Of a DNA stretch of 39,973 nucleotides, positions 37,270-38,402 are shown piece by piece. The translations under genes were made by a program, and so were the position numbers. Positions within the stretch are counted from its first letter, which is position 1. Every line of letters begins with the position of its first letter. The notes under the pieces were generated by a model. That model ran no database searches and had not been told where the DNA came from. It saw nothing but the letters and a program-made list of their open reading frames with translations. The stretch is from an uncultured Holdemania sp. GTDB lineage: Bacteria > Bacillota_I > Bacilli_A > Erysipelotrichales > Erysipelotrichaceae. The stretch is from positions 1-39,973 of the forward strand of contig CAMQTJ010000014.1 in the NCBI GenBank assembly GCA_947037125.1. The letters are read 5' to 3'.

Positions 37270-37731
37270 ATGATTAATGAAAAAGGATTTAAGTATCTTA
37301 CAATTTGTTTAGCTATTATTTATTCTGCTACATTTATTTTGTTTTTTACTTTTAATGGTGGTGTTAACACAACAAAAAAACCGTCTAATGATTTTACACG
37401 ATCTAATGAAAGTGTTACAAGTATTAATGAAGAAAAAGTTTTTAATTGGGTTCAACTTGGTATATTTAAAGAGCAATCTTCAATGGATTTATTAATTAGT
37501 GAATTAAAAACATTAGGTGTTGATAGTTATTCAGTAACTAAAAATGGACTGAATTATTTAGTAGCTGGGATTAGTAATGATGCAAATTCAACAAATAATA
37601 TCATTAAAATTTGTGATGAAAACAATATTGAATACATGCTTAAGAATAAAAAAATTAATGATCAAGCAACAATTGACTTATATAATAATCAAAAGTTTCA
37701 AGAATTTATGGAGGTAGTATTATTGGATTAA
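37270..37731 (+). CDS. SPOR-domain-like membrane protein
   Basis: A 153-residue protein with one N-terminal membrane segment (about 8-27), a Ser/Asn-rich linker, then a domain starting VFNWVQLGIFKEQSSMDLLISEL (parts: NWVQLGIFKEQ, LLISELKTLGV) that resembles the SPOR peptidoglycan-binding repeat ('VQLGxFxxxxxAxxLxxxL'). Such proteins bind denuded glycan at the septum or act in spore formation. I start it at ATG 37270, seven bases after GAGG. Its 3' end overlaps radC by ten bases and contains the radC ribosome binding site. Confidence 0.75.
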   Translation: MINEKGFKYLTICLAIIYSATFILFFTFNGGVNTTKKPSNDFTRSNESVTSINEEKVFNWVQLGIFKEQSSMDLLISELKTLGVDSYSVTKNGLNYLVAGISNDANSTNNIIKICDENNIEYMLKNKKINDQATIDLYNNQKFQEFMEVVLLD

Positions 37732-38402
37732 TTAAAGAAATACCAAATGATGAAAGACCAAGAGAAAAGGCAATTAAGTATGGTGTTAGTGTATTGTCTA
37801 ATCGCGAATTGCTTGCAGTAGTAATACGTAATGGTACAGCATCATGTTCTAGTTTGGAAATAGCTGATCAAATAATTATTAAGTGTGGTGGTATGAATTT
37901 TTTACCGTCACTAACGATTTTTCAACTGTGTGAAATAAAAGGAATTCAAAAAATTAAGGCTATTGAAATATTAAGTTGTATTGAACTAAGTAAACGTGTT
38001 TTAAAAGAAAATATCTTTGAAAAGAATATTGTAACCTCACCAAAGGCTTTAATTGATTGGCTAAATATGGAAATAGGTAATATTAATCAGGAGTTATTTT
38101 TAGTTATTTATTTAAATGTTAAAAACCATATAATAAGTTATAAAATTCTTTTTAAGGGCACAGTTAATGCTTCTTTAGTTGATCCAAAAGAAATTTTTAA
38201 GGAAGCTTTTATGTTATCAGCATGCAAAATAATGATTGCTCATAATCATCCTTCAAATGATTTAACTCCTAGTAATGCAGATATTAATATAACTAAACAA
38301 ATCATTAAAATAGCTCAATTAGTTGATATTGAATTCTTAGATCATTTAATTATTTCGTGTAATAATTACTTTAGTTTTAAACAAGAAGGATTAATTAATT
38401 GA
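37722..38402 (+). CDS. radC: RadC-family JAMM-domain protein, probable ATT start
   Basis: A RadC protein (cytoplasmic, JAB/JAMM metalloprotease fold, once thought a repair factor, role unproven). The JAMM motif is complete: His174-Asn-His176-Pro-Ser, then TPSNADI. The conserved RadC N-terminus (IKEIPNDERPREKAIKYG, then LSNRELLA) is encoded upstream of the first usual start codon (TTG 37794). In that frame there is no ATG, GTG or TTG between the stop at 37686-37688 and 37794. GGAGGT (37710-37715) lies six bases before ATT 37722, which gives 226 residues, the normal RadC length. An AUU start is therefore the best reading; a sequence error is possible. Confidence 0.85.
   Translation: MGLIKEIPNDERPREKAIKYGVSVLSNRELLAVVIRNGTASCSSLEIADQIIIKCGGMNFLPSLTIFQLCEIKGIQKIKAIEILSCIELSKRVLKENIFEKNIVTSPKALIDWLNMEIGNINQELFLVIYLNVKNHIISYKILFKGTVNASLVDPKEIFKEAFMLSACKIMIAHNHPSNDLTPSNADINITKQIIKIAQLVDIEFLDHLIISCNNYFSFKQEGLIN

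Follow-up and report, generated by a model that had tools for sequence, protein, structure and literature searches.

Very few bacterial genes are known to use non-NUG start codons, and such starts fare poorly with gene-calling programs limited to ATG, GTG or TTG. Starts of this kind have already been described in infC, pcnB, cvfC1, ccpN and sigR, and radC in a stretch of 39,973 nucleotides from an uncultured Holdemania sp. (the whole stretch is hereafter called the window) adds another. The gene for IF3, infC, resembles radC in that its AUH codon (AUU, AUC or AUA), which is ATT in this genome (L031), lies 6–7 bases past a Shine-Dalgarno sequence; it differs, however, in being autoregulated through IF3 itself and in the wide occurrence of its AUH start, whereas radC is not known to be linked to IF3 and AUH starts of radC are confined, in the loci examined, to part of one family. 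Two Staphylococcus aureus genes, cvfC1 (AUU) and ccpN (AUA), share with radC a conserved AUH codon joined to an extended Shine-Dalgarno sequence, and initiation at both was found to be reduced; cvfC1 heads its operon, whereas radC overlaps the gene upstream of it (PMC13009471). The non-canonical start of Streptomyces sigR is, like that of radC, conserved within a clade, and the canonical alternative is misplaced in the Shine-Dalgarno sequence, which may be compared with an ATG in three radC loci described below (PMC5472188). The sigR codon is GTC, however, and the repression of its translation by IF3 was established experimentally (PMC5472188), whereas for radC it would rest on analogy. Escherichia coli pcnB, as far as it is cited in PMC13009471, likewise has an AUU start outside infC, one that limits its expression; it is a different gene, and the clade-level comparison below concerns radC rather than pcnB. 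In the literature searched, which covered few subscription papers, we found neither a published description of an AUH start of radC nor a paper joining radC, start codon and ATT.

The radC start site in the window

The locus comprises the following features:

37270 to 37731, forward strand: upstream gene with a predicted N-terminal transmembrane helix and a SPOR-like domain (open reading frame; homologue profiles)
37710 to 37715, forward strand: Shine-Dalgarno sequence GGAGGT, 6 bases 5' of ATT 37722 (sequence; homologues compared)
37722 to 37724, forward strand: putative ATT start codon of radC (sequence reading; relatives have AUH at this position)
37722 to 38402, forward strand: radC (UPF0758 / RadC JAB-domain protein), 226 codons encoding 226 amino acids (frame and domain matches)
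37731 to 37964, forward strand: UPF0758 N-terminal domain, beginning 5' of the first NUG codon (Pfam match)
37794 to 37796, forward strand: TTG, the first in-frame ATG, GTG or TTG of radC; conserved residues lie upstream, so the conserved protein does not begin here
38034 to 38393, forward strand: RadC JAB domain with the HNHPS...S..D motif intact (Pfam match; alignment)

Positions 37700–37735 of the window read aagaatttatGGAGGTagtattATTggattaatt. The last stop codon in the radC frame 5' of the ATT is TAA at 37686–37688, and no ATG, GTG or TTG occurs at or 5' of the conserved RadC N-terminus. The Shine-Dalgarno sequence GGAGGT, located within the final codons of the SPOR-domain gene, precedes ATT 37722 at a functional spacing of 6 bases and an adjacent ATT at 37719 by 3 bases. 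Read from ATT 37722, the protein matched Pfam UPF0758_N at residues 4–81 (E = 5 × 10−23) and Pfam RadC at residues 105–224 (E = 9 × 10−42), scored over the cut-offs of the NCBIfam RadC models and carried the HxHP...S..D motif, which places it in the RadC / UPF0758 family; the observation in an earlier note on this DNA that ATT 37722 would give a 226-residue protein is confirmed, with both RadC domains matched. RadC is a widespread protein that, to our knowledge, has no settled function. A second, shorter RadC-like JAB open reading frame of ~158 amino acids with 38% identity was observed in the same genome (G000:C53:10614-10967).

Translation of a truncated protein from TTG 37794, the first standard in-frame start, appears very improbable: it would cost 24 residues, among them E11, R12, P13, R14 and E15, which are invariant or nearly so in an alignment of 11 family members, and the only Shine-Dalgarno match upstream of this codon is GGTG, which is not a strong one. 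That the conserved N-terminus is encoded 5' of the first standard start, as the earlier note had stated, is borne out by the residues ERPREK preceding TTG 37794. The note's choice of ATT 37722 as the initiator, six bases past GGAGGT, is backed by homology, by the spacing and by AUH starts in relatives, and on this reading of the sequence ATT 37722 is a well-supported candidate for the initiator of radC.

Comparison with other genes shows how unusual this arrangement is within the genome. All other open reading frames of at least 90 amino acids in the window have a standard start no more than 13 codons past the upstream stop, compared to 35 codons for radC. A further screen covered 360 kb, made up of the window and 16 stretches of 20 kb each from the same genome; it took in 281 open reading frames of at least 120 amino acids and asked for at least 14 codons free of NUG, no NUG with good support, and a strong Shine-Dalgarno sequence ahead of an AUH codon; radC was the only one to combine all of these, in a screen that is blind to genes with an in-frame NUG further upstream, such as infC. 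The infC gene of this genome starts with ATT after GAGGTG, with the same kind of spacing, so that the analogy to infC drawn in the earlier note is apt.

AUH start codons of radC across Erysipelotrichaceae

We read radC start codons in ~150 loci of Erysipelotrichaceae and a sister family, of which 122 loci of the family were counted (one further locus, L086, could not be resolved). At the position where relatives have ATG, 21 of the 122 loci have an AUH codon, nearly always preceded by a 4–6 base Shine-Dalgarno match, with at least one such locus in 11 of the 40 genera. What the earlier note had treated as a single oddity therefore recurs at the level of a clade; the comparison with relatives that it called for supports the AUH start in part of the family, though not in three relatives of the same genus (G001–G003), which have ATG. 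An AUG start was also found in another clade (G066, G067, G241 and G017). The AUH codons include ATA (L003), ATT (L005, L081, L097 and L126) and ATC (L011, L025, L032, L043, L044, L056 and L085). Four of the 21 loci are ambiguous. In three of these, L039–L041 of genus g64, an ATG lies one base past the GGAGG core and two codons 5' of an ATC in line with the ATC start of L032; this ATG, which recalls the misplaced GTG of sigR, is the codon that gene-calling software would probably choose. The fourth, L133, has an AUH codon without a Shine-Dalgarno sequence.

The AUH starts were first called by eye and then checked with an objective filter, which retained loci without NUG at codons −14 to −8 and counted the position of AUH from the RPRE motif. 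AUH was found at codon −10 or −11 in 17 of the 19 filtered loci, compared to a frequency of ~7% AUH per codon over the following 40 codons; the other two loci have ATG at −15.

Agreement among independent genomes also decides against a sequencing or assembly error that put ATT in place of ATG, or an indel that masks the start. With 135 contigs, this genome is a draft, and such faults do happen, as in an apparent homopolymer indel in recG of G026; however, AUH was read at the homologous position in G264 (9 contigs, 99% complete) and in G147 (~10 contigs, 100% complete), and we reject this explanation, to which we assign only a minimal probability, because independent genomes concur on AUH.

We compared the radC starts to those of other genes from the same genomes and to radC beyond the family. 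The rnc start was ATG in all 27 cases, and the infC start was AUH in all 25, including this genome. No AUH start was found among 27 recG loci, with two caveats: G065 was matched only internally, and in G026 (L310) an apparent one-base homopolymer deletion close to the ATG, which may be an assembly error or a frameshift, puts the recG start out of frame. Beyond the family, radC starts with NUG in 77 of the 78 readable genes (a few of which are themselves named Erysipelotrichaceae, with NUG starts), the remaining one being unclear, with an ATG further upstream; in two further genes the RPRE motif was not found. In four infC loci, ATT is replaced by ATC (L135, L154 and L156, from three genomes in genus g20) or by ATA (L152, one genome of g23), so that infC undergoes third-base turnover just as radC does.

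Overlap with the SPOR-domain gene and history of the start codon

The upstream protein is short and carries an N-terminal hydrophobic, predicted membrane segment. Its SPOR domain is recognized at the level of the family: 7 of 11 family homologues matched Pfam SPOR (best E = 4 × 10−9) and the family profile matched the SPOR domain of PDB 1x60 (E = 2 × 10−11), whereas the window copy remained under the Pfam cut-off (E = 0.018). A single-sequence AlphaFold model of this protein was poor (pLDDT 50) and was not used, and no Rfam match was found in the window. The last 10 bases of the SPOR gene (37722–37731) are shared with radC, so that radC begins before the SPOR gene has ended, as in coupled gene pairs; the earlier note had made no mention of this overlap.

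Overlap of radC with the end of the upstream gene was found in 17 of the 21 AUH loci (the exceptions include L005, L109 and L123) vs. 12 of the 101 family loci with NUG starts (Fisher p = 8 × 10−10; p = 0.003 by genus), although a tree-aware pair test yielded only 2 independent supported pairs. Because the overlap is itself inherited and only two independent pairs are supported, the association, which is confounded by shared ancestry, is suggestive rather than causal. Among loci with overlap, the difference in Shine-Dalgarno length between AUH and NUG starts was not significant (p = 0.066). The predicted unpaired fraction from the Shine-Dalgarno sequence to the start was ~0.33–0.51 in AUH loci vs. 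0.47–0.69 in NUG loci with overlap, in a small, related sample of 18 loci; pairing in this region thus seems to be higher in AUH loci, which could be a weak hint at coupling.

The overlap raises the question of whether the two genes are joined by ribosomal frameshifting into a SPOR-RadC fusion that makes a start codon superfluous, the more so as 11 codons free of stops precede the ATT in the radC frame. We rejected this explanation, which has hardly any likelihood left, because the frame of radC relative to the SPOR gene differs among lineages (the overlap lengths fall in both residue classes modulo 3) and some AUH radC genes (L005, L109 and L123) do not overlap an upstream gene at all. In addition, visual inspection revealed no slippery motif in common, whereas a Shine-Dalgarno sequence does stand at a suitable distance.

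Mapped onto a tree of 128 RadC proteins, the start switched between AUH and NUG 8 times, compared to ~20 times with shuffled labels, indicating that the AUH trait has been inherited over long times. On a tree of RNase III and RecG from 25 genomes, a selection biased towards AUH cases, AUH occurs across deep branches, with two clades that have AUG and a single GUG. The first two bases of the AUH codon are constant, while the third can be U, C or A. This is the pattern expected of a working start whose third base is mismatched when read, and taken alone it is no sign of selection against AUG; the presence of AUG in close relatives and in another clade implies that the weak codon is not strictly needed, and the third-base changes are compatible with near-neutrality. 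As far as sequence comparison can tell, the AUH start of radC is a real, clade-level, conserved non-AUG start.

The main rival to a regulatory interpretation accepts this start as real and denies it a regulatory meaning: the strong Shine-Dalgarno sequence and coupling to the SPOR gene would relax the demand for G at the third base, and the codon would drift among AUU, AUC, AUA and AUG. The 7 changes of codon identity within AUH rows on the RadC tree and the AUG starts in two clades amid AUH relatives fit such drift, as does the terminating ribosome that is at hand because most AUH cases overlap the upstream gene. GUG and UUG are usually far better starts than AUH. A relaxed start should accordingly yield them at least as often, whereas family loci overlapping the SPOR gene include one GUG and no UUG; this objection is weakened, however, by the fact that AUU to GUG takes two changes. 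We consider drift a serious contender, with a chance somewhat short of even.

Probable initiation at AUU and its possible meaning for RadC

We consider it quite likely that radC is translated from AUU 37722, placed by the Shine-Dalgarno sequence and read by the initiator fMet-tRNA with a mismatch; the weakness of the start, coupling and restraint by IF3 are what we infer beyond this. The strong GGAGGU in the final codons of the overlapping SPOR gene would position the ribosome, and the initiator fMet-tRNA would read AUU with its third base mismatched. As a weak start, AUU would keep RadC scarce, in line with the AUU and AUA starts of S. aureus, which, with an extended Shine-Dalgarno sequence, strongly cut output to a fraction of that from AUG (PMC13009471). 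Ribosomes ending the SPOR gene would feed radC by translational coupling, and the arrangement of the two genes suggests that the radC start is probably coupled to the SPOR gene. By analogy, the AUU start is probably also sensitive to IF3, which would restrain initiation there as it does at infC. An excess of IF3 suppresses de novo starts at non-canonical codons; re-initiation is reduced as well, though less strongly if there is a Shine-Dalgarno sequence (PMC2268962).

Taken together, the AUH start of radC is best read as an old, weak and genuine start. A further reading, which is tentative and rather doubtful, is that it forms an ancient, selected, IF3-sensitive valve in Erysipelotrichaceae, in which case RadC would join IF3 in a small set of genes that track initiation fidelity and its output would be tied to a membrane SPOR protein by the overlap. 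The N-termini of RadC would need correction wherever a gene caller picks the first NUG. Within one clade, radC occurs naturally in AUG, GUG and AUH versions, which lend themselves to comparing selection and drift as explanations of weak starts, and the AUH start offers a handle on RadC.
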